A DNA stretch of 64,000 nucleotides from Magnolia sinica (Eukaryota > Streptophyta > Magnoliopsida > Magnoliales > Magnoliaceae): positions 22,824,032 to 22,888,031 of the forward strand of contig NC_080582.1 of the NCBI RefSeq assembly GCF_029962835.1, written 5' to 3'. Each line of letters opens with the position of its first letter. Within the stretch, counting starts at the first letter, position 1. This document shows positions 22,936 through 47,901 of this stretch, in pieces. The notes below the pieces were generated by a model. It was given only the letters and a program-made list of their open reading frames with translations, did not search any database and had not been told where the DNA came from. Made by a program: the position numbers and the translations under genes.

Positions 22936-23751
<816 letters not shown>

Positions 23752-23993
23752 ATCATAGTGGCATAGGTCCTTATCCTCAGTTATATTGGCAAGGAGATGG
23801 TTCACACGAACCACGCACTTTGAGCCGAGAGTTTCGAACCCGGGCCGAGCCGAGAATCGGATCACCTTCGTTGATGATGGTGGCGGCAGCTGCTGCGCTG
23901 GTGCTGGCACCGTCGACGGTGCTGGCGTAGGTTCTACAATTGGATACATCCAACGATATTGTACTGGGCCTACAAGGTTCGCCTCGTGCGGTA
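23752..23993 (-). pseudogene. captured ARGONAUTE N-terminal fragment (AGO1/5/10 type)
   Basis: On the minus strand a Pro/Ala-rich leader (EPTPAPSTVPAPAQQLPPP) is followed by STKVIRFSARPGFETLGSKC, then VVRVNHLLANITEDKDLCHYD. This is the start of the N domain of AGO1/AGO5/AGO10-clade ARGONAUTEs, where RPG..G..C.V.ANHF and KDL.HYDV are conserved. ARGONAUTEs load small RNAs and direct RNA or DNA silencing. The frame ends at TATGAT/GTAAGA (donor at 23751-23747), so the original exon boundary is kept. Only about 70 residues of a protein of roughly 900-1,050 are present. The usual NHF is NHL here. The exon start is not clear; 23993 is the furthest the open frame can be argued. Confidence 0.83.
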
Positions 23994-24029
23994 AGTGAAT
24001 CGTTACAATGAAAAGACTAGAGTCAGTTT

Positions 24030-25223
24030 ACGAAAATATGTTTAAAATTAGGATAGGTTATAGGTTTAGGTGATATGTTTAGGTTTAGGGAATTGAGAAT
24101 AGGTTAAAGTTTAGGTTTAGGAAATCGGGTTCGGGTTCGGGATCGGGTTTAGGTTTGGGTTTTCAAGTTTAGGTTTAGGTTTAGGTTAAGGAGTTGAGAT
24201 TAGGATTAGGTGTAGGTTTAAGTTTAGGGATTCAAGAATACATTTAGGTTTTAGGTTTCGGTTTAGGTTTTAGGTTATAGGTTTAGGTTTATGTTTTAAG
24301 TTTAGGTTAAGGTTAGGTTATAGGTTATAAGTTTAGGTTATAAGTTATAGGTTATAAGTTATAGGTTATAGGTTATAGGTTTTGGTTTAGGTTAAGGTTA
24401 AAGTTTAGATTATAGGTTATAGGTTATAGGTTATAGCTTTAGGGAATTGAGAATAGGTTAAGGTTTAGGTTTAGGAAATTGGGTTTGGGTTCGGGATTGG
24501 GTTTAGGTTTGGGTTTTCAAATTTAGGTTAGGGAGTTGAGATTAGGATTATGTGTAGGTTTAGGTTTAGGGATTTGAGAATAAATTTAGGTTTAGGTTTA
24601 GGTTTTAGGTTTAGGTTTAGGTTTAGGTTATAGGTTATAGGTTTAGGTTTAGGTTATAGGTTAAGGTTTAGGTTATAGGTTATAGGTTTAGGTTTAGGTT
24701 ATAGGTTTTGGAATTTGAGAATAGGTTTATGTTATAAGTATAAGTTTAGGTTAATGTTGTAGGTTATAAGTTTATGTTAATGTTGTAGGTTATAAGTTTA
24801 GGTTTAGGGATTTGAGAATACATTTACGTTTTAGTTTTAGGTTTAAGTTTTATGTTTAGGTTTAGGTTACAGGTTTAGGTTTAGGTTATAAGTGTAGGTT
24901 ATAGGTTTAGGTTTAGGTTAGGTTATAGGTTGAGGTTTAGGGAATTGAGTTTAGGTTAAGGTTTAGGTTTAGGTTATAGGTTTTGGGATTTGAGAATAGG
25001 TTTAGGTTATAAGTATAGGTTTAGGTTAATGTTGTAGGTTATAGGTTTAGGTTATAAGTTTATGTTAATGTTGTAGGTTATAGGTTTAGTTTTAGGGATT
25101 TGAGAATACATTTAGGTTTTAGGTTTAGGTTTAGGTTTTACGTTTAGGTTAAGATTACAAGTTTAGGTTATAGGTTTAGGTTTAGGTTATAAGTGTAGGT
25201 TATAGGTTTAGGTTTAGGTTAGA
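24030..25223 (+). repeat. TTTAGG-like degenerate repeat block, part 1
   Basis: Over a kilobase is made of GGTTTAGGTTTAGGTTATAG-type text: units of 6 (GGTTTA) and 7-8 bases (GGTTATA, GGTTAAG) in mixed order. The plus strand is almost free of C. It resembles plant telomere DNA (TTTAGGG) but most units have GG, not GGG. Longer marker phrases (GGGATTTGAGAATACATTTA; GGGAGTTGAGATTAGGATTA) recur here and in the other parts, showing a higher-order repeat. It is interrupted at 25224 by an LTR element. Confidence 0.9.
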
Positions 25224-26538
25224 TGATGAGGGTTGAATATTACATATTAGACCCGTTATTACCTGATTTTACATACATGATAATGCTTAATGTCATATTT
25301 TAATTGTGTTTTTGTTGCAGGATGTAATTAGGAGTGTGGACTAAAAAAGAGCACTATAAGCACGAAATTAATGCTACGAAGTCACCAAAGCAAGGGACGG
25401 ACTCCAAAGGATCAACATTGATGAATTTACACACTAGGGATCCGAGGAAATCAAGTCGTTCACGTTAAAGAGGCCCGAAATTAGTCCAAAATGTAAGATC
25501 ACAGAGTTTCCACCATTTGATTGACTTAAAACTTTATATATGGGATGGGGGCCATAAATTAACCGTTACACGTAAAATATCAGCCATTGGATATCTCAGG
25601 AAGTGGCCTAACGGACAGATCAGCCCCTTAATTCCTTAAGTGGGGCTCACCTACAATCTGGATATGCTTCAAAGTTATTTTCAACTCATTTTAGGAGGTG
25701 ATACAGCAGATGGACAGTGCAGATTTCCCATAAACATTATAGTGGATCCCACACCATGGTGGGTGTACACCATGCACATGTAGTAGCGCCGCTCACCGGA
25801 CAGGCTAAGTCGGTCCAAGCATCGCTGACCCAAATCTTCTAAAAATGGCTATTTCCATTTACTGCTTCCTATGTAACAAACAGACGCTGTCCATTTTGCG
25901 AAAGTTAGTGGGCAACCATCAGGGCCCGTACGGTTGATCCAAGCCATCTATCTTGTAAAGGGCCTTGAAAGAATCAAACCCAAGCTGATATTTGGTGCCA
26001 ATGCACACACGCACGTGCTCTCTACAAAGGTTACAAGCGGACTACCCTGCGACGTTCAAAACAATTTTAGCGTGATTACTTCTTTTGGCCGCATCAACGG
26101 ACAACCAAAATTGATCAGGTCCGACCGGTTTTTCGAGAGGAATCCAATAAACGGATTGGATTTTACTTCTAACATCAATGTGGGCCCCACTAAGCATTGC
26201 AACGCTGTTACGTGAGAAAGAAGAAGTCTGGACGCCGACCAATGTTTGCGGAAGTTGCACGATCATGGCCATGATCAGATGGCTGATCTGATCCGTCCAT
26301 CGTATAGGCCAGCCAATAAACGTCCCAGGAGATGTTGATTTTATGGATAAAGTGCAAAGAATAAGGGACTTATGAAGCCCCGAAGGTGGCTGCGAAAAGG
26401 CTTATGCGAATTCTGCTGCGGAACTGACTTCAGCCGACTCAAGCCTCGCCACCGCCCCTGGCATCTATAAAAGGGCTTGAGACATCCAAAGCAAGGGAAA
26501 GCAGCAGAAGGGAGAACAAGATCTAGAGCTGGGGAGAG

Positions 26539-26590
<52 letters not shown>

Positions 26591-27316
26591 GAAAGAAGGG
26601 AAGGATGTTCTTATTGTTTAAATTTTATTTTTCCTTCATTATAATTGATTTTATGGATTGCTAATTTCTTGCCTAGGGCTGAGATGTAGCCCCTAATTTG
26701 AATAACTCTTGTATGTGTTGAATTCATCTAATTTGATTGTTTGTTTCTTTCCCTAGTGTGCTTAACTAAATTTCTGTACTTCTCCATTCTATGAGCTTAA
26801 CCAAAGTCTAGATGTGGATATTGTTTGGAATCTTATTCTAGGTGCTTATGTCTGACCATGAATAGGTTTCCTATAGAGAAATAAATAGGAATTACATCTC
26901 TTCACGCCTGACCATGGATGGAAAGATGTGATCCTTATGCTTTAAGAGATTATACATTCTGTGTGCCCGACCAAGGACATAGAGTGTGTTTTATTTATAA
27001 ATATATATCAATCTGAATTAGGGTGAATCAACAAGTAAAATAAGGGTCAGGATAATTAGGGGTGGATTCGAAAGTTCTAGTCTTCTCCTTGATTGAATTT
27101 TCCTTACTGCTCTCGGTTATTTTTCATAAATTTGTGATAGTTTACTTAATAGTTCACTAAACCCTTTGTTGGATTAGTTAAGAAGAGTCGTAAATTTCAA
27201 ATTGTGACAACCAGTCCTCGTGGGAACGATCTCGTAATACGTACCATATCTACATCTGATTCGTATACTTAAGAGTTTAAAATCATTTAAATCAGATTGG
27301 TTTAAATAAAACATCA
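25224..27316 (+). repeat. 5' LTR of the Athila-type element
   Basis: It starts TGATGAGGGTTGAATATT and ends AATAAAACATCA. It contains a TATA box (TATAAAAGG, 26466-26474) and a GA microsatellite (about 26544-26587) just downstream in the leader position. The open frames at 25934-26272 recur in the other LTR and have no product. Confidence 0.92.
26466..26474 (+). promoter_or_regulatory. LTR TATA box (5' LTR)
   Basis: TATAAAAGG fits the plant TATA consensus and is conserved in the 3' LTR at 33526-33534. Transcription would start near 26500. Confidence 0.65.
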
Positions 27317-27322
27317 AGTTTT

Positions 27323-27340
27323 TGGCGCCGTTGCCGGGGA
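27323..27340 (+). other. primer binding site, tRNA-Asp type
   Basis: TGGCGCCGTTGCCGGGGA lies six bases after the 5' LTR. It is the primer site that characterises the Athila group and relatives and matches the 3' end of plant tRNA-Asp. Confidence 0.88.
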
Positions 27341-27669
27341 CTGTTTTGATCCAAATTGGATTTAGGATTCTTTCTTATCATAATTCATAGCCTTAGGATT
27401 TTTCTCGCATTATTTTAGGAAACTTAATTTGTTTTTATTTTTATTTTTGTTTACAGGAATTGAGGAAGGAAGCTGCAAAATAAAATTGTCTTCAAAAGGA
27501 GGAGCTCCCAAATCTTCAGACATCAGTCATCTCCTTTCCCGGGTTCTTTCTTCCAATTCTTGTTTACATAGTTTTATATTTTTTTTAGGAAATTCATAAT
27601 TTTTAGTTTTATTTCTCTTAGGTTGCATCTTAGTTTAGTTTTCTTTCTTAAATTGCAGTAATTCAGTTT
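27341..27669 (+). other. element leader
   Basis: This is the untranslated leader between primer site and gag. It is T-rich, with no gene. Confidence 0.6.
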
Positions 27670-29486
27670 TTGCTGGGACGTAGATCTCTGAACATTGAAC
27701 TAGCACCTTTTGATCCTGAAATAAATAGAACATTTCGTAGAAGATTTAGAAACATCCTATTTGAAATGGCGAACGAGAATGGAATTAAAGCTCTTAGAGA
27801 TTATTCAGCTCCTGTCCAATTTAATGCATCTTCATGCATGGTGTTGCCAGCCACCCCGGCAGCATACTTTGAACTTAAACCTGGGGTCATACAATTGTTG
27901 CCCTCCTTTTATGGTTTAGATAAGGAGGATAAGGAGGATCCATATCATCATGTGAAAGAATTCTTAAACATTTGCTCTACCTTTAGGTTCCAAAACTTTT
28001 CAAATGATTCGATCTGTTTGCGTCTTTTTCCTTTTTCTTTGAAGGATAAGGCGAAAGCATGGTTGAATTCTCTAAGAGTTAGGTCTATCACTACTTGGGA
28101 CCATCTGACTAAGAAGTTCTTAAACAAGTTCTTCCCTGTTCACAAAACTAATGCTCTTCGTAGAGAAATTACTAATTTCACACAAAAAGAGGTGAGCACT
28201 TTCATGAATGTTGGGAAAGATGGAAGGACTTACTTCAAAAATGTCCACACCATGGTTTTGAAAAGTGGCAACAGGTTCAATACTTCTATGACGGTTTGAC
28301 ACCCCAAAACCGTCGCATGGTTGATGCCACCAGTGGAGGGTCATTCATGACCAAAAGCGATGTTGAAGCTTGAAATTTCTTTGAAACCTTATGTGAAAAC
28401 TCCCAGTAATGAGATTATTCAAATAGAGGTGAAAGAAGTCCTCAACCATAGAAGAAAGGTGGTATATAGGAGGTAGGAGTCACGCCAGATCTTTATGCCA
28501 AGATTGATAACCTGACAAAGAAAGTGGATGTTTTGATGTTAAATAATGGACCTCCACAACCAACTCAAGCCAAGTCATGTGCCATATGTTCCAGTCCCAC
28601 CCATCCTACACAGTCTTGTCCATCTAGTACAGCATTTTTAGAATTTCTCTCTAAACAAGTGCATGCTATGAACACTTTTCGGAGACCTGGGAATGATCCT
28701 TACTCAGATACCTACAACCTAGGGTGGGCTAGACATCTAAATTTTTCTTAGGCAAAAGAACCACAACAAGAAGGACCATCTGAAAATCCTCCAATGCAAC
28801 CTTACCCTCAAGTTGGCAGTCAACAGCTTCAACAGTTTCCACAATATCAACAAGTTCCTTCACAATCAAGGAAACCATCTCTTGAAGATACACTCAATCT
28901 GTTTATGCAGAGTTCTCTTCAATTTCAAAAAGATACCCAACAAACTTTACAAGCTAACCAGCAAAGCTTACATGCAAATGCGCAATCTATTGCCAAGCTG
29001 GAATTACAGTTGAGTCAACTTGCTGCCACATTGAGTGAGATAGAGAAAGGCAAGTTTCCTAGCCAACCTATGGCAAATCCAAAAGGACAGTATGAGATTG
29101 ACTCTAATTCAAACCAATAACAATATCATGAGCAAGCCAAATCAATCATTACCCTCAAGTCCGGTAAACAGATCGAGAACAAAGTAGAGATGCCTAGGGA
29201 AGAATCAAATTCCAAATCAGAAGATCAAAATGAAGCAGAGACACATACTAATGCATCGAAAGCCCAAAAGCACTCTGACTCTCCAGGTACCACTCATGTG
29301 CCATCCTATGTACCTAAAGCACCTTTTCCTCAACGTCTGGCACCAGTTAAGAAAGGAAACAACTTTAATGAGATATTGGACATGTTTAAGCAAGTGAAAA
29401 TTAACATTCCATTGCTTGATGCTATCAAGCAAGCCCCTGCTTATGCTCAGTTTCTTAAAGATTTATGCACTCAAAGATTAAGATGA
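27670..29486 (+). pseudogene. gag: Athila-type gag, broken
   Basis: The first open frame (27670-28299) carries RDYSAPVQFNASSC, then the capsid core (FYGLDKEDKEDPYHHVKEFL, LRLFPFSLKDKAKAWLNSLR, WDHLTKKFLNKFFP), the retrotrans_gag domain. A frameshift near 28215 moves the text to another frame (HGFEKWQQVQYFYDGLTPQN). Later open pieces are 28524-28751, with a CAICSSPTHPTQSC zinc-like motif, 28794-29120, Gln-rich and probably coiled coil, and 29190-29486, with YVPKAPFPQRLAP just before protease. In intact elements Gag builds the particle. Stops and shifts make this copy non-functional. Confidence 0.85.
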
Positions 29487-29616
29487 ATGTTCATAAGAAG
29501 GTCTTCCTTGCAGAGCAACTCAGCTCCATGATTCAAAACAAACCCCTCCTAAATTTAGGGATCCAGGAGCTCCTTCCATTTCTTGTGTCATAGGAGATCA
29601 TAATATTGAGAAGACA

Positions 29617-30852
29617 TTGCTTGATTTAGGGGTGAGCGTTAATTTGTTGCCATATTCTATGTATGAGCAGCTAGGACTTGGTGAGCTGAAATCAACTAAA
29701 ATAACACTCCAACTAGCTGATAGATCTGTCAAGGTGCCTCGTGGTGTTATTGAGGATGTGCTAATCCAGGTTGATAAGTTTTATTTTCTAGTGGATTTCA
29801 TCGTTCTAGATACTCAGCCTGTCCAGAATCCTACTAGTCAAATCCCGGTTATCCTGGGACGTTCATTCTTAGCCACATCCAATGCTATCATAAATTGCAG
29901 GAATGGAGTTATGAAGTTGTCTTTTGGTAACATGAAGATTAAACTCAATGTTTTCAATGCTGGACAACAACCGTCAGACTCGGATGATATATTTGAAGTG
30001 AACATGATTGAAAGTCTAGTGTATGACTCTTTCCTTAAATCTTCTGAAGATGCTCTTGAGACTTGTTTAGCACATTTTGGCGTAGATTTTGACATAGAAA
30101 GTTCTATCCAAGAAGTCAATGCATTACTTGACTTTAATCCTGAAATGGATACTACAAAATAGAAAGCTAGAGTGGAACTTCTTCCACCACCTGAGTCTAA
30201 AATGGTCCCATCTATTGAGAAACCACCCGAACTTGACCTTAAACAATTACCTGAAACTCTCAAGTATGCATTCTTAGGTCCTTCTGAAACCCTGCTTGTC
30301 ATCGTAACTTCTAACCTTGATAAGGAACAAGAGGGTAAGTCACTTAATGTTCTTAGAGAATATAAGGCAGCCATTGGGTAGACAATAGCGGACATAAAGG
30401 GAATAAGCCCTATTGTGTGTATGCATCATATTCATCTTAAAGAAAATGCAAAAACGTCGTATGAAATGCAAAGGAAGCTTAACCCTAACATGAAAGAGGT
30501 CGTTTGAGCAGAGGTGCTTAAATTGTTAGATGTTGGTATCATTTACCCCATTTCAGATAGCACATGGGTCAGCCCAATTCAAGTTGTTCCCAAAAAGTCT
30601 GGGATTACGGTGAAAAAAATTGATGATAATGAATTACTTCCAACCCACATGACTATGGGTTGGCGAGTTTGTATTAATTATCGTAAACTGAACCTGGTCA
30701 TAAGGAAGGATCACTTTCCTCTTCCTTTCATAGACCAGATACGTGAGAGATTAGCAGGGCATAGCTACTGTTGTTTCCTGAATGGTTATTCCGGGTATAA
30801 TCAGATTCTCATTGCTCTCGCGGGTATTTTCAAAGTAAATGGTCAACGTTGA
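29617..30852 (+). pseudogene. pol: Athila-type pol: protease and N-terminal RT, then deletion
   Basis: A single frame, broken by three stops (TAG at 30160, TAG at 30379, TGA at 30505), covers two domains. The retropepsin-like protease has LDLGVSVNLLPYSMYEQLGL at the catalytic site and VILGRSFLATSNAIINC at the flap and C-terminal part. RT follows with LLDVGIIYPISDSTWVSP, VPKKSGITV, WRVCINYRKLN and FPLPFIDQ. At about 30818 the text jumps from the RT phrase LNGYSGYNQI to the end of integrase (FKVNGQR, then LKPY in a shifted frame). The RT catalytic YxDD block, RNase H and the integrase core are therefore lost in one internal deletion. Confidence 0.88.
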
Positions 30853-32282
30853 AACCATATTTTAGAGATTTGGTTAATAAAGATGTTGTGGAAATTTATC
30901 TGGAGGACCCATGTTAGTAAGATTGATTAATTCATGGTCCACGGTTGCTTGCATCGCTTGTTTGGCTGAAGACGTTAAACTTAGCGCTCCTGGGAGGCAA
31001 CCTAGCTTTTCATTCCATTACATTTTCTTAGTTAGTTAGTTCAATGTTTGTGGGTAACATTGCTGCAAACCCTCACGAGACTACAACTCGTCCACTAGGG
31101 GCAACCTAGGGGTTTAAAGGCTTGTTGCATACGCTAAATGCAATCGAGAGAACCTGCGAAAGTGGTATAGGTAGGATCTTCTTTTTGTGATTGTATTTTT
31201 GTCATTTTACTTTGTTGATTTCTCTTTTGTGTTGACTCGCTTTTATGTTGATATTTTTGGAAAAGCTTCTTGATTCTCCGTCCAGGTATTATCTTTCCAT
31301 CACTCCTCTTTTATTTTTGTTGTCCCATGTGCATTGCATGCTTATTTCTTTTACATTGAGGACAATGTAGATTTTAGGTTAGGGGTGGGAGATTAGGTTA
31401 CCTAATCAGTATTTTCTTGGTCTTGAGCAAACAATTGTGAAAATTTTTTAATTGGAATTTCTTGTGAAGTCAAAGTGATGTTGAAGGATAGTTGTGATTT
31501 TAACATTACAAGATACAGAATGTTGGTAATTTATGACTCTGGGATTCAGTATATGTTAGATTTCACAGTTAAGTTTGAGTTGTTAACCCATGATTAGAAG
31601 CTTTAAACATTGATTGAGTCATGATTTCACAGGACGCATCTTGCTTACACATTGAATGATTAACTTGGTAATCACTAAGCATGAAAAGAATTAGCCCGAA
31701 AAAAAAAATGGCAGTAAGAAGAATTGAAAGGGTAAGTCACATAATCTTCATCATAGGTTTGTTCCCTATAGGTGTAGATTCGATCCCCCATGATTGACAT
31801 TTAGAAAAAGTTAGGCGACAAGTTTTCACCATCGGTTTGCTCCCTATAGGTGAGGATTTGATTCCCCTCCTTGGCATTACTATTCATAAAGAAAATCAAA
31901 GGCTGATAGAATGAAAAGTTAATCTATAAGGCAAGTGTTGGTTTCAGGTTTGGTTGTCATGAATTCTGTTGTTAATTACCAATGATAATATGAAATTGAC
32001 AATTAGATCTCTTAATGATTGTAAGCCGAGATTACACTATATACTCATGGAACTCAATGTTTAGAATTGTTCTAATTAATGGATTAATATTTTGAACTTG
32101 ATTATGAAGTTTACCATGACCTTGTTTCCAGGAGAAAATTCCACTCACCATTCATGAATCTTAAAATTCTCACATCTCGACTATTTGTTCACAAGTCACT
32201 CAGGTTTACAGGAATTGTCGTGTATTTCTGAAATTATTTTTCGTATGTTTTGCTCAGGACTAGCAAAATGCTGGTTGGGAGT
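30853..32282 (+). other. 3' untranslated spacer of the Athila-type element
   Basis: After the pol remnant comes a long non-coding spacer, as usual in this group. It includes GCTCCTGGGAGGCAACCTAG and a short internal repeat (ATAGGTGTAGATTCGATCCC at 31769-31788 and a similar phrase at 31847-31867). A purine-rich stretch just before 32283 is the likely polypurine tract. Confidence 0.6.
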
Positions 32283-33607
32283 TGTAAAGAGGGTTGAATA
32301 TTGCATATTAGACCCGATTATTACCTAATTTTATATAAATGATAATGCTTAATGTCATATTCTAATTGTGTTTTTGTTGCAGAATGTAATTAGGAGCGGG
32401 GACTGAAAAAGAGCACTACAAGCATGGAATTAATGCTGCGAAGTCACCAAAGCAAGGGACGGACTCCAAAGGACCAACATTGATGAATTTACATGCCAGA
32501 GATCCGAGAAAATCAAGCCGTTCACGTTAAAGAGGCCCGAAATTGGTCTAAAATGTAAGATCACAGGGTTCCCGCCATTCGATTAACTTAAAACTTCATA
32601 TATGGGATGAGGGTCATAAATTAACCGTACACATAAAATTTTAGCCATTGGATATCTCGGGAAGTGTCCCAACTGACAGATCATACCCTTAATTCCTTAA
32701 GTGGGGCTCACCTACAATCTGGATATGCTTCAAAGTTATTTTCAACTCATTTTAGGAGGTGATACAATAGATGGACGGTACAGATTTCCCATAAACATTA
32801 TAGTGGATTCCACACTGAGGTGGGTGTGCACCATGCACATGTAGTAGCGCCGCGCACCGGGCAGGCTAAGTCGGTCCAAGCATCGCTGACCCGAATCTTC
32901 TAAAAACGGCTATTTCCATTTTTAGCTTCCTATGTAACGAACGGACACTGTCCATTTTGCGAAAGTTAGTGGGCCACCATCAGGGCCCGTACGAATGATC
33001 CAAGCCGTCCATCTTGTAAAGGGCCTTGAAAGAATTGAACCCAAGCTGATATTTGGCGCCAATGAACACACGCACATGCTCTCTACAAAGGTCACAAGCG
33101 AACTGCCCTGCGACGTTCAAAACGATTTTAGCATGATTGCTTCTTTTGGCCGCATCAACGGACAACCAAAATTGATCATGTCCGACCGGTTTTTCGAGAG
33201 GAATCCAATGAACGGATTGGATTTTACTTTTGACATCAACGTGGGCCCCACTGAGCCTCGCAGCGCTGTTACGTGTGAAAGAAGACGTCCGGACGCCGAC
33301 CGATGTTTGCAGAAGTGTATGATCATGGCCGTGATCAGATGGTTGATCTGATCCGTCCATCGTATATTCCAGCTAATAAACGTTCCAGAAGACGATGATT
33401 TTACGAATAAAGTGTAAAGAACAAGGGACTTATGAAGCCCCGAAGGTGGCTGCGAAAAGGCTTATGCGAATTCTGCTGCGGAACCGACTTCAGTCGACTC
33501 AAGCCTCGCCACCGCCCCTGGCATATATAAAAGGGCTTGAGACGTCCAGAGCAAGGGAGAGCAGCAGAAGGGAGAACGAGATCTAGAGCTGGGGAGAGAA
33601 GAAAGAG

Positions 33608-33661
<54 letters not shown>

Positions 33662-34374
33662 GAAAGAAGGGAAGGATGTTCTTATTGTTTAAATTTTATT
33701 TTTCCTTCATTATAATTGATTTTATGGATTACTAATTTCTTGCCTAGGGTTGAGATGAAGCCCCTAATTTGAATAACTCTTATATGTGTTGAATTGATCT
33801 AATTTGATTGATTTATTTCTTTCTCTAGTGTGCTTAACTGAAATTTCTGTACTTCTCCATTCTATGAGCTTAACCAAAGTCTAGATGTAGATATTGTTTG
33901 GAATCTTATTCTAGGTGCTTGTGTCTGACCATGAACATGTTTCCTATAAAGAAATAAATAGGAATTACATCTCTCCATGCCTGACCATGGATGGAAAGAT
34001 GTGATCCTTATGTTTTAAGTGTGCCAGACCAAGGACATAGAGTGTGCTTTATTTATAAATATATATCAATCTGAATTAGGGTGAATCAACAAGTAAAATA
34101 AGGGTCAAGATAATTAGGGGTGGATTCGAAAGTCCTAGTCTTCTCCTTGATTGAATTTTCCTTATTGCTTTCGGTTATTTTTCATAGATTTGTGATAGTT
34201 TACTTAATAGTTCGCTAAACTCTTTGTTGGATTAGTTAAGAAGAGTCGTAAATTTCGAATTGTGACAACCAATCCTCGTGGGAACGATCTCATAATACGT
34301 ACCATATCTACATCTGATTCGTATACTTGCGAATTTAAAATCATTTAAATCAGATTGGTTTAAATAAAACATCA
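32283..34374 (+). repeat. 3' LTR of the Athila-type element
   Basis: It starts TGTAAAGAGGGTTGAATATT and ends AATAAAACATCA, parallel to the 5' LTR along its length. It has the TATA box at 33526-33534 and a longer GA microsatellite at about 33608-33658. A short deletion near 34015 separates it from the 5' copy. Confidence 0.92.
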
Positions 34375-35689
34375 TTAGGTTATATAAGTTAAGGTTTAGG
34401 AAATTGAGAATAGGTTAAGGTTTAGGTTTAGGAAATCGGGTTGGAGTTTAGGTTTGGGTTTTCAAGTTCAGGTTTAGGTTTAGGTTAGGGAGTTGGGATT
34501 GGGATTAGGTGTAGGTTTAGGTTTAAGGATTTGAGAATACATTTAGGTTTTAGGTTTAGGTTTAGGTTTTAGGTTATAGGTTTAGGTTATAGGTTTAGGT
34601 TTAGGTTAAGGTTAGGTTATACGTTATAGGTTATAGGTTAAGGTTTAGGTTATAGGTTTTGGTTTAGGTTAAGGTTAAGGTCATAGGTTATAGCTTTAGG
34701 GAATTGAGAATATGTTAAGGTTTAGGTTTAGAAAATCGGGTTCGGGTTCGGGATCGGGTTTAGGTTTGGGTTTTCAAGTTTAGGTTCAAGTTTAGGTTAG
34801 GGAGTTGAGATTAGGATTAGGTGTACGTTTAGATTTAGGGATTTGAGAATACATTTAGGTTTTAGGATTAGGTTTAGGTTTAGGTTTAAGTTATAGGTTT
34901 AGGTTTAGGTTATAAGTGTAGGTTATAGGTTTAGGTTTAGGTTAGGTTATAGGTCAAGGTTTAGGGAATTGAGTTTAGGTTATAGGTTAGAGGTTTAAGT
35001 TATAGGTTATATGTTATAGGTTAAGGTTTAGGTCATAGGTTAAGGTTTAGGTTGAGGTTTAGGTTATAGGTTTTGGGATTTGAGAATAGGTTTAGGTTAT
35101 AAGTATAGGTTTAGGTTAATATTGTAGGTTATAAGTTTATGTTAATGTTGTAGGTTATAGGTTTAGGTTAAGGTTTAGGTTTAGGTTATAGGTTTTGAGA
35201 TTTGAGAATAGGTTTAGGTTATAAGTATAGGTTTAGGTTAATGTTGTAGGTTATAAGTTTATGCTAATGTTGTAGGTTATAGGTTTAGGTTTAGGGATTT
35301 GAGAGTACATTTACGTTTTAAGTTTAGGTTTAGGTTTTACGTTTAGGTTTAGGTTTAGGTTATATGTGTAGGTTATAGGTTTAGGTTTAGGTTATATGTG
35401 TAGGTTATAGGTTTATGTTTAGGTTAGGTTATAGGTTAAGGTTTAGGGAATTGAGTTTAGGTTATAGGTTTAGGTTATAGGTTAAGGTTATAGGTTAAGG
35501 TTTAGGCTATAGGTTAAGGTTTAGGTTTAGGTTAAGGTGTAGGTTTAAGTTTAGGTTGGTTTTGGGATTTGAGAATAGGTTTAGGTGAAGGTTATAAGTT
35601 TAGGTTTAGGAAATTGGGTTCGGGTTTGGGTTTGAGTTTAGGTTTTCAAGTTTAAGTTTAGGTTAAGAAGTTCAGATTAGGATTAGGTG
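34375..35689 (+). repeat. TTTAGG-like degenerate repeat block, part 2
   Basis: This continues part 1 in the same strand sense after the Athila-type insertion. The same marker phrases recur (GGGAATTGAGAATA, GAAATCGGGTT, GGGTTTTCAAGTT, TTGAGAATACATTTA) at intervals of a few hundred bases. It stops at the solo LTR at 35690. Confidence 0.9.
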
Positions 35690-36505: not shown

Positions 36506-36548
<43 letters not shown>

Positions 36549-39500
36549 TCTCTCTTCCTGTTTATATGGCCCACCTTAATGTATCATCCTCACCATCTGA
36601 TCATGAGGCCCACCATGTTGCTGCCCATTTTTAAGACAGACATGATGAAGGGGACATACAAATATCAGTTTGATCCTAGCTGGTGGGCCACGCTGTGTGG
36701 ACCCCACCCTGATGCATGGAGTATCCATGCTGTCCTGTACGAGGACCGCAATGATTTATGGGCTGGATTGCCCCGTCCAGCTTGCTGGACGGTCAGGCCT
36801 ACTCAATGCTAAACCGGATTTGGCCAGTGAGACTACAACAGCTATATAACTGTTGTAATGGCATCGTCAGAGAGCTGGGCCCCATCAATCAGCATGTATT
36901 CCGTCCCACCGTCCACCTATTTACATGGGACCCACCCCACACATGCGACAAGTGTGAGGCTGCGGCCCACCAGAGGCCTTTGGTGTATGAATTTTTGTCC
37001 AACCGTCTGTCTGGACGCTGGACGCATAGCAAATAAATAAATAAATAAATATATTTAAGTTTTTTTAGGGGTTGCTCATACAGGCCCCACCTTGATTTAT
37101 GTATATAATCCACACCGTCTATCCCGTTCCCCAGCTCATTTTAGGCGTTGAGCCGAGAAATGAAGCTAAACCGACTTTCTGGTAGGCCATAGCATTGAGA
37201 ATAGTACTTTCACTGTTGAATTACACCCCGATATTTCTATACACCAAAACCCATCAAATATTGAGCTTGATGGGTTTATATTAAGACATGGGAACCAACG
37301 GCTGGGTCGGATTCCCCTGATAAGGGCCCCACATAGGAAAAACTGTGAAAAATCCCCTTTTTTCCAAAAAACAAATATATTGTTTATTAGGCAGCAACAC
37401 ACAAGCGGACGCAGCAGCATCCTGCGGTTGCGCATGGACAGGAGAAAGGGCAGGGACGAGTCCCAGCCGTGGGCCCCACCATGATGTGTGTGAACATTAA
37501 GGCCGTGCATTTGATGGCCCCTCCTTGCCGTGGGGCATCCCAAAAATCAGCCGTACTTGGGAGCTCAGGTGGCTCGCACGGCAAAAAACAGTGATGAATT
37601 GAACGTCTGCCATAGGAACTCTGTTCCAGACGTCTTGGAGAAATATAAAATTTATACTTTTATGTCTGTGTGACCGTATCTACAGATGGATGGCAAATAA
37701 AAGTTGTGGTGGGCCCTCGGTGGGACCCACCCGTGATGGGGTTGGTTTGGTTAGTGTACCACACATCAACCCTATAGCTGTTGACGTGGCAGGTCATGTG
37801 GAGCCCACCTTGGTGACATGTGCACCCAATGTGTGGGACCCTCTTGATGTATGTGTTGTATCCTAACCATCCATCCCATTGGCAAGCCCGTCTTAAGGCT
37901 TAGGACTAAAAATAAGACAGGTCAAGGATCACGTGGACCATACTGTAGAAACAGTGGGTTTGAACGTCCACCATTTAAACCCTCGAGCTACCGGGTTTGG
38001 ACCTAAATGATATTTGTTTTCCCTCTAGATCCAGGCCTTTGTGACCATGAATAGGCTGGATGGGAAATAAACCCTATGATGGGGCCCACTACAATTTAAC
38101 CGTGGAAAAATCATTATCTCTACTTGTCGCACCCCAAACTCGGTGACCAGATTCACAAGGAACCCGATGGCTGGTTCTGTCCGCAACAGCCTCCATAGTA
38201 CCCCATTCTCGGTTCCTGAGGTAGGTTCCGATCCTAGGATCTTACAAGGAGGATTTCCATAATAGTATAATCATTCCAATACGAGCATACCCAAGATCAC
38301 AGCAAGTATATCTGAGAATAATGAAGAGCACACATCACAAAATCCACTAAGAATTTGAACTTTTGCAAGCTTATATTAGGTCTGAAAGGACATACATAAG
38401 ATAATGGGAAAAGAGAGAAAAGGGTCAACAACACTGGAGTCCTCAAGCTCAACTCTACTCCACGCTCTACTGCTACGTCGCCTGCCTAGAGCTTCCTGCA
38501 CACATCAATTGTGCATAAGCTTAAGCTTAGAGGGTGGTGAAGGTGTGTGATAATAGTGCACAGAAGAATAATAGGGGATATAGGAAGAAAATATGATCAA
38601 AGCCAACACCACCAGTCTTAGCAGGGCTGTTATGAACGCAAGAAGCTATACCAAAGTAGTACAATAATGCAGGAAGTCATACCAAGGCTATATAATGCAA
38701 TGAGTACTGTAATGCAATGAATACTAGGTGTCATGCTAAGGCTTAACATGAATACTATGCAATATGCAATACGAAGTAATACCAGTGCTTATATCCAATC
38801 CACATATCAAGTACATTTCCATCATAGGGAAATCACTGGGGTCCATTACACTGCTAGATGACTGCCGCTCTACAGACCCCGCATAGTCAAACGAGCGTAA
38901 GAGACCTCACTACCCGCCTGTGGACAGCCAATCACTAGCAAGGCCTGTCGGTAGCAGACCCATTCATGAGCTGGTCAGACTCAGCCTAGCAATGCCTCCT
39001 TCCATCAGGCGAGTAAGGCCACACCCTATCCAACCGACTACACGACAATGAGAGTCGCGGCCTAACAGTATAAGGCCCACATGCGCTCATATATTCCACC
39101 CGGTCACGGCGTTGGAGCAGATCCTTGGTACCATGGAAGTTTTGGAAATTTCACCCATGGGCATCCTATGCACCCGGTATGCTCAAGTAACATTTTTGGT
39201 ATCCAAATATGGTCATCCACGATGTATTTGTGGAGGCTACAGCCCTAATGAAGCAAGGGCAATAATGCTCATATGTTATTCAATGCCAAATGCATGAATC
39301 ACGCAATCAATCATGCATCAATTTCAAGCACCAACGTGCTCAAGAGGAAATACTACGTCCGTCGGAGAAGGTAACATACAATGCCCAATGACACAATATG
39401 ACCATACACGCATAATGGTTTAGTGTCAACCAAGCATACAATGATGTACATGGGTCATGAGGATGAATTTAATCACACTATATGGTGATATACAATGTAT

Positions 39501-42500
39501 ATTGCATTCCTCCTATCCAAGAAGGAACCAAGACTAGGTACTTAGACAATATCCTTAAGGAATTAATCCAACTTCTAGTGGGGGCCCATTTACCTGGGGT
39601 AGCGCATGAGGCTAAGTATACAAGCTACGGGTCTAAGTAATATAACAATGAGCTTAGCAAGAGTCTAAGATGATATCCAATCACTCTTTAATACAACTGG
39701 GTCTAGAGGGGTCCATAATGGGGACATTTAACCACCATTCCCCAAAAAGGCTTATCAACCATGAACTATATGGATAAAAGGCCCCAGGCCTACATTTAAG
39801 ATAAAAATAAAGGTATCCACATACATATATTCCTCATAATAGGCCATAAAAAGATATTGTACCACTTATAATAACATGGGCTTAAGAGGAGAATTAAGGC
39901 CCAAGGCTCAATTCCCAATGGCCATAGAATCCATGCATTAAGTTGGACTTTGTGGGTAGCCCGCGTACACAATATACGGCCAGAAAAATAAGTTTAAGTT
40001 TGGATGAAATGGGCCCCACTACATCAGCCCAATAACTAGCAATTTAAGTGGGCAACTAAGGGCCCAATATTATCCTTATCTCAGCCCACAAGTCCATCAA
40101 AATGGTGGAAGTCGGCCCAATATATGGTTGGGCCAAGCTGGGACGTTCCAACCCACTCTAGACCCATGGGACGCCCCAAAAACCTGATCTAAGATGGGGT
40201 CCTCATGTGATCACTAAAGGTGACCCAAAAGAATGCATTGATTAAGCCCAAAGATTGTAATAGAACATAAGCATGCAACACGTACACAAGTTCTCAATAT
40301 GGTGGGCTCCACAGCCAAATAAAGTTTTAACCATACAATTGTATATTTAAGGACCTTTGATAAACTTTTGACCCGTTTGACCTCGTAGACCTGCTAAGGT
40401 CCAGAAATTAGTTAAGTCTGTGAAAATAATCTCATGAAGGCCAACTATACTCACTGGGGGACCCCACCAGATGGAGAGTGTGTATATATCATGAAAAGAT
40501 CAAGTGGGCCAGCTAATGGTTTGTGAGTCCAGTAGCAGCCCAAGGCAGAGAGTGCTTCCATGATCGGGCGATCCAAGGCTTAAATGGCCTGGACCAACGA
40601 ACGTTGAGGTAGGCTCCACATACATCCAGATTTAGCCTCAAATAAACGATCCAGGGTCTATGGTGGGCCTTTAACCATCCATAGAGAAACCCATGGGCCT
40701 ACCTTAGGATCACTCAGGAGGACATTCAACCTCAACTAGGTCCCAAAAGGTAGCCTGTTACGTATACAAAGAAAGGTCCAAGGCACAATCAATCCATGGC
40801 CTAGTGGGCAATACACTAAGCCCCATACATAAGCAACCTGGTGGGCCCTTAAGCAAGGTTAGGGTCCAACCATAAGGGTCATGGGTTCACTCATTGTGGT
40901 GGGCCTTATGGGAAGCTCATTATCCCAAACATATGGAAATCCTTATTTTTAACACAAGTAAGTTGGGCCTCACATCTCGGCCTAAGTATGGATTTACTAT
41001 AGTGGGCCAACAAGGGCCCAACTACTTGAGTATTTGGCCCATAAGACCCATCACAATGACATGGTAAATATATGACCCAAGGGTTCAACGGGCCTATCAA
41101 AAGTTTCAGCCCAACCAAGGCTATAAGGCCCATACTTAACTAGGAGACTAGCCCAAGAAGAATCTAATTGGAATGGGCCTTGAATCATGCATTAATTAAA
41201 CCCAAAAATTTAAAATTAAGATGGTAAGATAACTATCTTAGTCCTCCTCAGATCTAATGGGTCATATTGCCCCAAAACAACATCTATAGGCAACAATTAT
41301 TGGGCTCAATGCTAAATTCCAGCCCACCCAAATTTCTGGGTTGGTTGGAGTCCAACAATAGAAGTATTTCTTAGTATATTTAATCCCTGATGGACCACAC
41401 ACATCATTGTGGTCCCTACCAGATGAGAAAAGATATATAACACATATATCAAGTGGGTCAGGCCGTTGGAATGCAGTCTCGGCAGTAGCCTAAGGCAGGG
41501 ATGTCCCATGTGTAGGCAACCCTATGGGCCCGAGGTATTTAGCTCAAAAATTCAACTAATGGACCCCAATTGAATACCAAAAAAAGGAGGATGATCAATC
41601 TCCTAAGGACCTCACATGGATAGGTGGTGGGATATACAACACATCAAGGTGGGCCCACGAAGTAGGCTGGACGCCCCAGCCTAGGTGTCCCTGCCTAGCG
41701 GGCTACTCCCGGCCACACCACGGCCAGCTCAAATGTCCGTTGGGTTTAAAATATTTTAAGGTGACACTTTCATATGTGGGACACACCTTCATAAACTTTC
41801 AGGATTTTTGAACACTTATAAATATTTCAATTAATTTAAATGATACAGACTGTCCAGAAAATCGGACTAACCTGGACGTCCCAACGTGGTGGGCCAGTCC
41901 GACCCTCGTCACGGTGTGCACAGGGGTCCATTAACCCTGAAATTTGTTTGGTGAGTCCTATCATGAGTGGACCACACTTTTAAAATATTTCAGAATTTTT
42001 AAACATTTAGAAATATTTTAATTCATTTAAAGAAATCAATCTGTCCTGAAAATTGGACTGATCTGGACACCATATTATAATGGCCCGGTCCAGCCACCAC
42101 CATGGTATGTACAGAAATCCATTGGCCCAAAAATTTTGTAGGTGGGTCCTAAAATGAGTGGGTCACTTCTCTGTATATTTTTATAATTTTTAGACACCTA
42201 AAAGTATTTTAATAAATTTCAGAATTCCAACCTGTCCAGGGTGGATTGTTGGAATTGTATCTGTCCCTATGTTTGGGACCACATAGGGTGGGCCTGGACC
42301 TACCCAAACCCTTGAAAAATTAGGAGAAAAGGTGTACCTACATCTGGACAATAAGTGGGGTCTACTGGAGTGGCCCACTTCTTCCAAAAAGTCAGGTGAA
42401 TATAGTGTTTTCCTCCATACTGTATTGCTGAACTGTCTAGAAATTTCTGGACAGTTAGCCATCTTTGGCCCAACCCATGGGCCTCAAACTTGGGAGGTAG

Positions 42501-45500
42501 GGTGTGGACCCCATACCACATAAAAGTGGGGTCCACACACTACAAAAATCCTAAAGAAATTTGAGATAAAAAGGCCTGCAAATACGCCTAAATAGTAACT
42601 CAAAATACATGCTCCAACTGGGCCTGAAATCTGGACAGCAACATAGGCTGTCCATATTTCAACCCATGCAAATAAATCAAGGGGTCCATAGCCCTGATTC
42701 CTCATGTAGGGTACACCCTAATAGGTTTACAAAATTTCAGACCCATTAGAGCTCTCAAGCCTCCATAAAAATCCATTTTAGAGGTCATCCAAACCATGCA
42801 TGCATGATTGGGCCTAGACGTCTAATCAAGGTGGGCTTGGACGTCCCATCTTGCTGGGGGCCTAGGATGTTGTTGACCTACGTTGGTGGGCCACACATCA
42901 TTAGATAATATATAGAAGTAGATAAGGGAAATGAGAGAGAGAAGGAGCAAGATCGGCCATAGGTGGGAGGTCCCGCCACTAGTGGGCCACACACACACAA
43001 ATCCACACCATCACTACATCATATACTTACATGCAAGCCAAGATACATCAAAATAAGTTGCTGGATGGTAAGGATCCCTTCCCTACATGCATGCAAAGGC
43101 CTATGTGGCCCATGTGATGCAAGGATTAAGAGGAAATCATCATAGGAATGGGTTGTGAAGGATCTAGGCCCTTGGCCTTCATCCTAGGAACCATGTAGGA
43201 CCTCCACCATGGATTGGTGGGTCTTACATGCTTCCATGCATGCAAGGAAAAGAAAGAAAAAAGAAGAAAGAGAGAAGGATCTAAGGAGAGCACACACCTA
43301 AATGGATCCTACTCTAAAGTTACATCAATCTACTCTTCATGCTCCAAGGGACAAGTTTCAATGGGTGAGATGGATTATTGAAGGCTATATGGGAGAGGAT
43401 TTGAGGGAGAAGGGGCTGGAGAAGAGAGGAATATGGAAGAAAAGTTGCTGGAAATTCTAGCAATGGAGGGAAATGAGAGGGAGGGAGAGAATAAAGAGAG
43501 AGAAAAATGCCATCATTATTTTGTAAGAGAAGTCATCATAGCATAAGGAGGAGATTACAATGTTTAGGCCTTTAGACTAGGCTTAAATAGTGTTTGTTGA
43601 GATGGGTGGTGTTTCCATAGCATTTGTGTGGTGTGTGTGTGTGTGTAGTGTGCATGGGGACTTGTGCCATGGGTGATGTGGTCCACATGCATTTCACCTA
43701 GGTGGACCACATGATCAATGGTCATATAATGAAATGTACACAACTTTTGATCTACATATCGAATTTATGCACGAAATGCAGTGTTGGAACCGCGGCGATG
43801 ATGCGGTCGCAATGGCATAAGTCTCGGGTCAATCTGAGTCGGGTCTATGTGACCGAACTCAAGGATGACCACAAATACTATCCGAGGGTCGCGGGTCACC
43901 AAAATTTGACCGGTAGGACTGCGGGACCAAAATGGATAAAGTGCATATATACACGCACACATGCACACATGCGAACTCGGGTCAGGTCTCACACTACTGC
44001 TAGTTATTGTATAGTCCAGTTGATCTTTTGATATGATTCATTATATATATATATATATATATATATTGATTTCTAAAAATAGATGAGTTGGGTTCGACCT
44101 ATTTGAACTCGGCCCATTCGACTTGGCCCATTGTTTCGGCCCATTTGACTAGACCCAATGTGATATACGAGGCCTGACGTTGAGGCCCACATGGATATAC
44201 ATGAGGCCTATGTGATGCAGCCCATTTGATGTATTTGGAGCCCTTGGGTCGAGGCCCAACGAGATGTACATAAGGCCCATTGCAATGTATGATTTCACCA
44301 TGGGTTATGTAATAATGTTCATGATAGATCATGCCTTGGGAGCAATGATGGTTTGATGCCCACATTGTAAGGATGATGTTGGTTAAATGTCCGCATTGTC
44401 ACTCGCCCTAGGGCCCATTGATAGGCCCATACTTGTAGTGTGTAGGCCGTCTAGGCCCATCTTCGTTATGAACAGAGCCCATCACCATATAACATGTTTA
44501 GTATAGATCCCTGATTCAGGTTCATACACATCATATGTATGCTTGATATGAGGAGTGACTGAGCATAGCATATGCCCTTGGGCAGATTGTTTATGGGCTC
44601 CCTGATAGGCGGAGTTGCCTCGCATGAGCGTTCGGTACGCGCAGGATTGTTACATGTCTGATAGTATGATTCATACACTTGCATTTATGTGATTGTGATT
44701 ATTATATGGCCTAGCAACATCAGGGTCATAGTCTCCATAGACACATCGTGGGTGGCTGGATTGGATACCGAAAATATTGTTACTAAGCATCGGGGCGCCA
44801 TAGATGTCCCTGGGTGAAAATCTCTAAACCCGATGGTACTAGAGGATGACTCCAATGTCGAGACCGAGTGGAGATATGAGCGCACGAGAGCCGAATACTT
44901 GGAGGCCGTGTCTCCCACTGTGTCGTGGTCGATTAGAAAGGAGTGTGGCCTTACTCGCCTGAGAGTAGGGGGCAATACTAGGCTGAGTTTGACCAGCTCG
45001 TGAATAGGTCCATTATCGACTTGCCGGATAGGTATTGGCAGACTATTAGCCAGGCGGATAGTGAGGTTTTTTACGCTCACTTGGAATGTGCGGCTAGGAG
45101 AGCGGCCGTGCCATTTGGAGTGTATTAAACCCCGGTGATTATTCAAAATGAGAACTGTACTGATATATGATGAGGATTGGCATGCTTGAGTTGCATCTCA
45201 CATCGCATGGCCGTGTTATGGCCAATAGCATTCATACCTTACACCACATACCTTGGTACGGCTGATTGCATTCATGTACTCATCACCATGATTCCGCATT
45301 ACTCTGACCTTGCATTCTGAGCACGCTTATATTGCGCACACACTTACACCACCCTCTAAGCTTTCTATAAGCTTATGCATGATCGATGCGTGCAAGTGAC
45401 GCTAGGACGCAGCCATAGCCTCGTCAGAGTTGGAGCATACAGTCGAGCTTTTGGAGTTTCTGTTATTATCATCATCTTGCATTTCCCTTTCGTACGCATT

Positions 45501-45748
45501 GTACTCAAAAGTTTTTTATCATAGTAGATTTTGTGATGGTGTTCTTGTGGTTATTGTTCGTGGGTTATGCTTATGGTTATGCTTGTACAGAATCAAAATC
45601 ATGTTTGAAATCCTCCTTATAGGATCCCAGGATCGGAACCTGGTGTATGGGTGCCAGGAGCCGAGAATGGGGTACTATGGAGGCTGTCGACGCTGGATTC
45701 GACGATCGAGAATTTTGTGAGCCCGGTTTTCGAGTTTGGGGCGTGACA
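35690..45748 (+). mobile_element. solo LTR A (about 4.2 kb), split by solo LTR B
   Basis: It starts TGTAAGGCCCGTATCC and ends TTTGGGGCGTGACA, with AGGTG on both sides (35685-35689 and 45749-45753). The target duplication is convincing but lies in repeat-rich DNA where AGGTG is common. Without the inner insertion (38125-43993 plus one CTACT) the length is about 4.2 kb. Start and end match the start and end of B in the opposite orientation, so both are single LTRs of one gypsy-like family with very large LTRs. No gag or pol is seen. Features inside include a CT microsatellite (36506-36554), foldback-like GGGCCCACC text, and short unsupported open frames. Confidence 0.78.
38125..43993 (-). mobile_element. 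solo LTR B (5.9 kb), opposite orientation, inside A
   Basis: On the minus strand it starts TGTGAGACCTGACCCGAG at 43993 and ends TTTGGGGTGCGACA at 38125. The flanks are CTACT on both sides (38120-38124 and 43994-43998). Its end region (GGATCGGAACCT, GAATGGGGTACTATGGAGGC) matches the end of A at about 45620-45690, and its start region (CCGCGGTTCCAAC near 43785-43797) matches A at about 35860. It contains many GGGCCC phrases and about three imperfect 180-bp tandem units at 41735-42240, which may explain its extra length. No coding sequence is recognised. Confidence 0.78.
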
Positions 45749-47270
45749 AGGTGTAAGTTTAGGTTAAGGAGTTGAGATTAGGATTAAGTGTAGGTTAAGG
45801 TTTAGGGAATTGAGAATAGGTTTAGATTAAGGTTATAAGTTTAGGTTTAGGAAATCGGGTTTGGGTTCGGGTTTAGGTTTGGGTTTTCAAGTTTAGGTTT
45901 AGGTTTAGGTTATGGAGTTGAGATTACGATTAGGTGTAGGTTTAGGTTTAGGGATTTGAGAATACGTTAAGGTTTAGGAAATCGGGTTCGGGTTCGAGAT
46001 CGGGTTTACGTTTGGGTTTTAGGTTTAGGTTTAGGTTATAGGTTATAAGTGTAGGTTTATGTTTAGGTTTTAGGTTTAGGTTATAGGTTATAGCATTCGG
46101 TTAGAGGTTTAGGTTTAGGTTTAGGTTATAAGTTTTGGGATTTGAGAATAGGTTTAGGTTATAAGAATAGGTTTAGGTTTAGGTTTTATGTTTATGTTAA
46201 GGTTATAGGTTTAAGTTATATGTTTAGGTTTAAGTTATAAGTGTAGGTTATAGGTTTAGGTTTAGGTTAGATTATAGGTTAAGGTTTAGGGAATTGAGTT
46301 TAGGTTTTAGGTTTAGGTTATAGGTTAAGGTTTAGGTTTAAGTTTAGGTTATAGGTTTTGTGATTTGAGAATAGGTTTAGGTGAAGGTTATAAGTTTAGG
46401 TTTAGGAAATTGAGTTCGGGTTCGGGATCGGGTTTAGGTTTGGGTTTTCAAGTTTAGGTTTAGGTTTAGGTTAGGGAGTTGAGATTAGGATTAGGTCTGG
46501 GTTAAGGTTTAGGAAATTGAGAATATGTTTAGGTTAAGGTTTTAAGTTTAGGTTTAGGAAATCGGGTTCGGGTTCGGGTTTAGGTTTGGGTTTTCAAGTT
46601 TACGTTTAGGTTAAGGAGTTGAGATTAGGATTAGGTGTATGTTTAGGTTTAAGGATTTGAGAATACATTTAGGTTTTAGGTTTAGGTTTAGGTTTTAGGT
46701 TTAGGTTAAGGTTAGCTTATAGGTTATAAGTTTTGGTTATAAGTTATAGGTTATAGGTTAAGGTTTAGGTTATAGGTTTTGGTTTAGGTTAAGGTTATAG
46801 GTTTAAATTTAGGTTAATGTTGTAGGTTATAGGTTTAGGTTATAAGTTTATGTTAATGTTGTAGGTTATAGGTTTAGGTTTAGGTTTAGGTTTAAGGATT
46901 TGAGAATACATTTACTTTTGAGGTTGAGGTTTAGGTTTTACGTTTAGGTTAAGGTTACAGGTTTAGGTTTAGGTTTAGGTTTAGGTTATAAGTGTAGGTA
47001 TTAGGTTTAGGTTTAGGTTACGTTATAGGTTAAGGTTTAGGGAATTGAGTTTAGGTTATAGGTTATAGGTTATAGGTTAAGGTTTAGGTTATAGGTTAAG
47101 GTTTAAGTTTAGGTTATAGGTTTAGGTTTAGGTCATAGGTTTATGTTTAGGTTATAAGTTTAGGTCATAGGTTTAGGTTTAGTTTATAGGTTTAGGTTTA
47201 GGTTTAAGTTATAGGTTTAAGTTTAGGTTTAGGGAATCAGGTTCAGTTTCGGATCGGGTTTAGGTATTCT
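45749..47270 (+). repeat. TTTAGG-like degenerate repeat block, part 3
   Basis: The block resumes with GGTGTAAGTTTAGGTTAAGG after solo LTR A, in the same strand sense. It has the same unit types and marker phrases. It ends near 47270, where unrelated sequence begins. Confidence 0.9.
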
Positions 47271-47397
47271 CTAGTATTATCTATTATTGAACCTAGTATT
47301 ATCTACTACATACTAGTAACATACAACCAATATTGGGGCACCATACCATAAGCATCAAGAATTTCATGTCCCCCTAAACAAGATATCCTACATTGAT

Positions 47398-47439
<42 letters not shown>

Positions 47440-47556
47440 GTTCTTTATTTTCATTTACATTCGCAAATACATTCATCATCCATCGAAGAAAATTGAAACA
47501 AGTATTGTCACTTTATGACTAACGGTTGAAAAGGAAAATCATGCATCTTATCTTAC
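47271..47556. other. non-coding, AT microsatellite
   Basis: No gene is recognised. An AT dinucleotide run lies at 47399-47434. On the minus strand this would be the intron downstream of the AGO4-like exon ending at 47557. Confidence 0.45.
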
Positions 47557-47901
47557 CGTCGCAATTGACGGCACGTCAGACTAGCCTGGGGAACCATGAT
47601 ACATCCATCCCCAGGATGATTGTGGGAACTCCAAAAATCGAGGGAATGGAAAGTGAGCGTTCAACTACAAGTAAAGAATTCATTCCACCAAGCTGTTGAA
47701 AAGAAAGGAAATGAGGTCGTCAGCTAGACAGAGAGATCACACCTGAAAGTCCATAGGGAAGGGACATGATATTTCAGTGACAGTTCACCTTGGCATTTAT
47801 CTTCAAAAGAACATTTGTCAGGCATTGGTCATTGACTCTTTGAGGTGCAATGCATTGAATGACAATACCCAATTTTGGCAGGTTCTTTTTCTTCCATGGA
47901 C
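47557..47901 (-). pseudogene. captured AGO4-clade ARGONAUTE PIWI fragment (two exons)
   Basis: On the minus strand an exon at 47901-47789 encodes GPWKKKNLPKLGIVIQCIAP and on through NDQCLTNVLLKINAK, ending at AAG/GTGAAC. The intron runs to CAACAG at 47693. The next exon (47692-47557) encodes LGGMNSLLVVERSLSIPSIF, then GVPTIILGMDVS, and after a one-base loss GSPG-SDVPSIAT, ending at ACG/GTAAGA. This is the start of the PIWI domain of AGO4/6/9-type ARGONAUTEs, which guide RNA-directed DNA methylation. The Asp of GMDVSH is the first catalytic residue of the slicer triad and is present; the following His codon is damaged and the Gln codon is a TAG stop. Introns rule out a retrocopy. Confidence 0.92.

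Follow-up and report, generated by a model that had tools for sequence, protein, structure and literature searches.

A Pack-CACTA-type transposon carrying pieces of two ARGONAUTE genes in Magnolia sinica

The 64,000-nucleotide stretch of Magnolia sinica DNA analysed here (henceforth the window, C10:22824032-22888031, searched against its own genome of 1.84 Gb in 127 contigs) contains a CACTA-type transposon that carries pieces of two ARGONAUTE genes, one of AGO5/MEL1 type and one of AGO4 type. At least four unrelated gene pieces lie within this element (AGO5, AGO4, COG8 and RPL35A). Parents were identified for the captured coding DNA of AGO5, which matches loci on C13, and of AGO4, which matches a gene on C7, while COG8 and RPL35A were recognised by Pfam alone.

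Limits and class of the element

Both limits of the element, 22547 and 55193, are marked by CACTA-type terminal inverted repeats (CACTACAACAAA and TTTTTTGTAGTG, respectively), and a 3-bp target-site duplication (TSD) brackets it. Palindromic repeats of one kind occur in the subterminal part of either end, with a similarity between the two ends of mostly 60-66%. Joining the flanks of the element yielded one alignment that spans the site (194 columns, 71%); its partner, 55656-55473, is the second arm of a palindromic miniature inverted-repeat transposable element (MITE) that the element interrupts. Since this alignment runs through the insertion point, 22547-55193 is best read as a single insertion within a MITE. 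Six-frame Pfam scans (E 0.01-0.05) found no match to Transposase_21 or DUF4216 in the element, and the sole transposase trace in its whole length was a 23-residue remnant of DUF4218. Lacking any transposase domain beyond this remnant, the element is non-autonomous, and it is a Pack-CACTA that shows the tested features of this class, copy number aside.

The 39-bp left end occurs at 11 genomic places with at most 3 mismatches, its own copy counted. Four of these were examined for about 1.5 kb inward each, namely the element itself and the sister ends L044, L045 and L046. L044 diverges from the body of the element at 22920-22932, earlier than L045 and L046, which share this body to the point where AGO5 DNA starts. 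Beyond it, L045 continues with a short AT-rich stretch followed by a CCTAAA/TTTAGG array, without AGO5, and L046 with other sequence, no array being among its twelve listed rows. At this breakpoint the sister ends look like the record of a capture into a pre-existing family body.

Table 1. Features of the element and its interior (window coordinates).
Feature	Position	Strand	Remarks
Pack-CACTA-type element	22547..55193	.	ends CACTACAACAAA (left) and TTTTTTGTAGTG (right); TSD TAT/TAT
Left end with adjoining family body; palindromic repeats in its subterminal part	22547..23135	+	shared by L045 (as far as 23147) and L046 (as far as 23135)
Captured AGO5/MEL1-type DNA	23130..23930	-	exon 23752-23930 and part of the following intron
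DUF4218 remnant of CACTA transposase	23938..24006	-	in frame with AGO5 exon
Degenerate TTTAGG array, first part	24053..25223	+
Nested gypsy-type long terminal repeat (LTR) retrotransposon within array	25224..34374	+	LTRs ~25224-27316 and ~32285-34374
TTTAGG array, second part	34375..35689	+
Second nested insertion within array	35690..45748	.	TG...CA ends; TSD AGGTG/AGGTG
TTTAGG array, third part	45749..47265	+
Captured AGO4 DNA	47487..47940	-	exon 47789-47901, intron 47693-47788, exon 47557-47692; intron at both edges
Second TTTAGG array	47941..48615 (ends approximate)	+	begins flush with AGO4 breakpoint
COG8 (Dor1) fragment	49030..49289	-	two adjacent Pfam stretches in two frames, E 5.4e-6 and 2.3e-6
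RPL35A fragment	52141..52263	+	Pfam E 4.6e-7 and 6e-9 in two scans
Right end with ~112-bp subterminal repeats	54095..55193	-

The two ARGONAUTE pieces and their closest loci

Across exon and intron, the AGO5 piece shares 91.2-92.0% identity with L019, L020 and L021, a cluster of three AGO5-type loci on C13; these figures do not count an AT repeat at 23211-23309 that is absent at that spot in the C13 loci. These loci are 94.5-95.9% identical among themselves, and the piece is about equidistant from all three; its source may have been an ancestor of the C13 loci or another member. In L019, the M. sinica MEL1-like protein has a 100% match to its residues 1-203 and a 97.8% match to residues 215-304; the edges of the matches may fall on introns. 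Other AGO-like N exons that were fetched, L023 and L024, reached a protein match of just 52-53%. The N-domain exon of the piece finds its best match in the same MEL1-like protein (46 of 61 residues, E 3.6e-20), the sole pass among 19 candidates, and matches AtAGO10 in PDB with 27.8 bits (E 2.7e-5). Its ArgoN match in Pfam is weak (14.5 bits vs a cut-off of 30.9) because the piece spans just the start of that domain.

AGO5 homology ends at about 23930, and to the right of this point lies the transposase remnant LVGPVQYRWMYPI. It scored 24.3 bits (E 3e-5) in a long query, below the cut-off of 27 bits, and 29.9 bits in a short query, above it. Transposable element (TE) and AGO5 sequences overlap at their join by 4 bp, CAAA, and both AGO pieces are oriented in sense relative to the remnant.

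The AGO4 piece is 91.05% identical over 458 bp, introns included, to C7:15628394-15628844 (L033 3895-4345), the best match among the loci fetched. The C7 gene, covered by L033 and L032, matches the Cinnamomum AGO4 protein from residue 35 to 858, and the clade of the piece is evident from 71 of 85 residues shared with this protein vs 39 of 79 with an AGO5-clade protein. Left unspliced, the PIWI piece scored 21.1 bits, under the Pfam cut-off of 28.9; spliced by hand and joined over a frameshift, it reached 62.5 bits (E 5.1e-17). The frameshift stems from a 2-nt deletion relative to the C7 gene and is accompanied by a CAG-to-TAG stop, both in exon 47557-47692. An alignment of the AGO4 clade, of which the 111 full ungapped rows out of 120 were used, has 46 positions that are at least 98% conserved; the piece departs from it at 3 of these, compared with 0.15 on average and at most 5 for the proteins. 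A protein alignment had raised the suspicion that 21 nt were deleted in frame ahead of the GPW codons; this was dismissed, as those bases match an intron of the AGO4 gene. The junction between array and AGO4 occurs at 1 genomic place at up to 3 mismatches. Since introns are kept in both AGO pieces, it was genomic DNA that was copied.

The initial annotation had described fragments of two AGO genes from different clades, both on the minus strand of one giant CACTA. Parents at 91-92% (AGO5) and 91.0% (AGO4) bear out the two pieces. Their origin from two clades holds too, and the loci nearest to them lie on separate contigs, C13 and C7. Its AGO5 interval, 23752-23993, holds as an exon to 23930, and the end portion belongs to the transposase remnant (~23938-24006). 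Its AGO4 interval, 47557-47901, does contain two PIWI exons, within a wider region of homology and with the frameshift and stop described above. The element itself is real; its giant size is not original, as two nested insertions inflate it beyond about 13.4 kb.

Interior, decay and genomic surroundings

Both nested insertions swell the size of the element, and the gypsy-type retrotransposon is not original to it. By coordinate arithmetic, removal of the two leaves about 13.4 kb and brings the AGO pieces to about 4.3 kb from each other. The LTRs of the gypsy-type element are 91.9% identical (Kimura two-parameter distance 0.073 over 2076 sites), and its flanks, TTAGA/TTAGG, are alike at 4 of 5 bases. 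An Rfam match to snoR71 (46.9 bits; 28153-28258, minus strand) lies antisense in its gag frame, and this family model possibly catches retrotransposon sequence. No Pfam domain was found in the second insertion by six-frame scans. It is a GC-richer, 10-kb insertion with a perfect 5-bp TSD. Its stretches 38123-39489 and 44481-45750 are 64% alike in inverted orientation, which sets them apart from ordinary LTRs.

The surrounding TTTAGG arrays are strand-biased in all four stretches (Table 1), and a 41-bp array motif occurs at 857 genomic places at no more than 3 mismatches vs 0 for a reversed control. Sister end L045, of which only the left end was examined, likewise has a TTTAGG array after its CACTA left body. 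The arrays were rejected as telomere DNA, TTTAGGG being rare in them (7, 5, 5 and 3 occurrences vs 65, 65, 81 and 35 of TTTAGG). An arrival together with the AGO genes was rejected as well: the AGO4 and AGO5 stretches examined are without TTTAGGTTTAGG, and the 41-bp motif is spread over its 857 places.

As for the remaining cargo, the COG8 fragment is probably frameshifted, judging by its two frames; it gave 0 matches in PDB at E up to 1, and its identification is by Pfam alone. Over 52097-52290, the RPL35A piece seems to run intronless through what are exon boundaries in the normal gene and to be missing about ten codons; it is perhaps a retrocopy. Pfam matches to DUF3915, IFP_35_N, DUF7420, YnaM and DUF6526 were set aside as low-complexity or weak.

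The base changes in the AGO pieces carry information on the history of the element. From parent to piece, 38 of 64 changes are C>T or G>A (AGO4, 17 of 30; AGO5, 21 of 34, counted at sites where the three C13 loci agree, with the AT repeat excluded), vs 17 changes of the reverse kind (p 0.006); changes on the branch of the parents are also among the differences. The C>T and G>A changes affect 11 of 65 CG, 10 of 66 CHG and 17 of 290 CHH sites, such that CG and CHG together (21 of 131) exceed CHH (p 0.0015). In a control, a single pair from the AGO5 cluster (L020 vs L019), 6 of 38 changes were of the C>T or G>A kind. This decay pattern, which is that of methylated cytosine, suggests that the element itself was once methylated and thus a target of silencing. 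As any methylated transposon would decay in this manner, the pattern argues against a successful escape from silencing, not against every effect on it.

AGO-like DNA is abundant in the genome, with 80 exon-level Piwi matches at E up to 1e-3 from the 130 of 245 candidates scored. Besides the C7 gene, eight Piwi matches cover the profile span 240-275 (with one base of play) in a frame of 72-73 residues. Four stretches at or beside such matches, L034-L037 (on C15, C19, C14 and C4), all resemble the C7 AGO4 gene, introns included, at 82-94% identity. One internal deletion is common to L034 and L036, and the starts of L035 and L037 lie at most 10 bp apart; to judge by these boundaries, the dispersed AGO4 3' segments are at least two differently bounded groups. 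On the evidence of these copies, AGO4 DNA has been repeatedly duplicated to other genomic sites. In the 3.3-5.4 kb of the L034-L037 stretches we found no TTTAGG array and identified no vehicle; the 8-base CACTACAA has a single occurrence in them, which lies in L037 at a distance of about 1 kb from the AGO4 copy there. AGO-like Piwi frames, many of them interrupted by stops, also cluster at C12:15.10-15.17 Mb and C11:8.00-8.13 Mb, which suggests local AGO duplication followed by decay.

Elsewhere in the window, a second CACTA element at 9920-16938 has a TSD (AAA/AAA), subterminal repeats of TTTAGCCTC type and an F-box piece (E 1.8e-7), with no transposase found; an empty-site test for it gave no spanning match. 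The flanks of 22547-55193 further contain a 2.2-kb tandem duplication (78%) and a tandem repeat of about 530 bp (~89%), at 17536-21842 and 55841-57969.

Origin and role of the ARGONAUTE pieces

We consider it very probable, from the sequence comparisons above, that 22547-55193 is a non-autonomous Pack-CACTA whose gene pieces were captured through repair, which was methylated and decayed, and in which the AGO pieces are neutral cargo. Breaks inside an older member of the family would have been repaired, and during this repair unrelated genomic stretches (AGO5, AGO4, COG8 and RPL35A) would have been copied or joined in, a type of capture with which the CAAA overlap at the edge of TE and AGO5 is consistent. 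The element would then have inserted once, into the MITE, and would have become methylated, taken up its two nested insertions and decayed. We infer both this order of events and the lack of function of the AGO pieces. Two observations weigh against such an account: the frame of the AGO5 exon is open with its splice donor kept, and two of the four recognisable cargo genes are AGOs. Assuming 4 cargo genes, 15-30 AGO loci and 30,000 genes, a random draw would give the latter with a probability of only about 1.5e-6 to 6e-6. The earlier contention that two AGO captures seem unlikely by chance agrees with this figure, yet it loses weight because the case was chosen post hoc and AGO-like DNA is plentiful in this genome.

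One alternative gives the cargo a functional role. RNA from the AGO pieces could act as small RNAs or as a decoy that lowers AGO4 and AGO5 in a miR820-like manner, and PMC3459959 offers a precedent, a CACTA-borne small RNA directed against a silencing gene whose precursor possibly came from that gene. The parent loci are close enough for cross-matching. Exact 21-mers of the AGO5 exon occur in L019, L020 and L021 at 6, 12 and 5 of 159 positions, and those of the AGO4 exons in the C7 gene at 15 of 93 and 15 of 116, so that divergence does not refute the silencing idea; the comparison with host AGO genes proposed in the initial annotation thus turned up close loci, not parents too diverged to cross-match. 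The AGO4 piece also contains a 21-pair foldback (47891-47912/47738-47761). However, folding of the two pieces was not clearly above shuffles (z -1.40, with 8 of 100 shuffles as good, and z -1.14, with 11 of 100), and the foldback was rejected as a pre-miRNA, as a stem at least as good arose in 4 of 25 shuffles (10, 21 and 19 of 25 for the other three strands). No hairpin of the miR820 type stood out beyond shuffles in the two pieces, no Rfam miRNA was found in the window at gathering scores, and the listed matches within the window, simple-repeat and array rows excluded, contained no further copy of either piece, direct or inverted. Together with an array:AGO4 junction that has not been multiplied and the methylation-type decay, these results speak against the proposed weakening of silencing, and we regard anti-silencing cargo as highly improbable. 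As to other family copies, that junction lies at a single place, and L045 continues without AGO5. We hold it equally improbable that AGO genes are a recurrent cargo across the genome and that RNA from their copies tunes AGO4 and AGO5 down, as a distributed counterpart of miR820; if true, RNA from AGO copies would relax silencing for transposons at large.

The splice signals raise another prospect, in which splicing would bring the chimeric transposase:AGO5 exon and those of AGO4 into transcripts, as it does the gene pieces of soybean Tgm-Express1 (PMC1947982). The transposase:AGO5 fusion is in frame and followed by a GTAAGA donor, and the AGO4 piece retains its intron with GT...AG. Against this, an in-frame fusion arises by chance in 1 of 3 cases, the chimeric frame has an upstream stop and no start codon of its own, and AGO4 exon 2 contains a frameshift and a stop; such exon shuffling is very unlikely. 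It is also highly improbable that two CACTA ends lie by chance around a host locus with accumulated AGO pseudogene pieces. A patchwork interior and the limited similarity of the subterminal repeats at the two ends would fit this scenario, but the TSD matches, the flanks once joined give an alignment to the second MITE arm that spans the site, and two sister ends share the left body to the AGO5 breakpoint.

A decayed Pack-CACTA with neutral cargo would remain of interest for its testability and for the repeated spread of AGO4 sequence around it. A transposon with pieces of transposon-silencing genes is a natural test case for gene capture that feeds back on the silencing machinery, and with parent loci and AGO breakpoints known, such feedback can be tested concretely. 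The decay pattern hints at the direction, in that the silencing machinery would have acted on the element and not the reverse.

We found no published report of ARGONAUTE pieces in a CACTA element, which is weak evidence, as subscription papers and preprints were mostly outside coverage; in the accessible portions of two papers checked for AGO4, it is named as a part of the pathway alone. A functional parallel, described in PMC3459959, is miR820, which resides in rice CACTA elements and lowers OsDRM2. Like the present element, these CACTAs contain exon and intron sequence akin to that of a gene in the DNA-methylation pathway; unlike it, they hold at least five copies of a miRNA that is expressed, whereas here we find no hairpin beyond shuffles and one array:AGO4 junction. 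Tgm-Express1 (PMC1947982) is a soybean CACTA with five host gene pieces and usable splice sites. In both elements the pieces come from several genes, include exons and introns and retain their splice sites, while ours is decayed, has other cargo and is known from sequence alone. The class as a whole, Pack-CACTA (Pack-TYPE) transposons, is described from Arabidopsis, rice and maize (PMC8903248), and its mechanism is treated in two reviews (PMC13317346, PMC8616336). The present element resembles the members of this class in its CACTA ends, its TSD, the lack of a transposase of its own and gene pieces from several loci. It differs in that two of its pieces come from RNA-silencing genes and its interior is largely TTTAGG array and nested insertions. 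The novelty of the element lies in this cargo, not in its kind.

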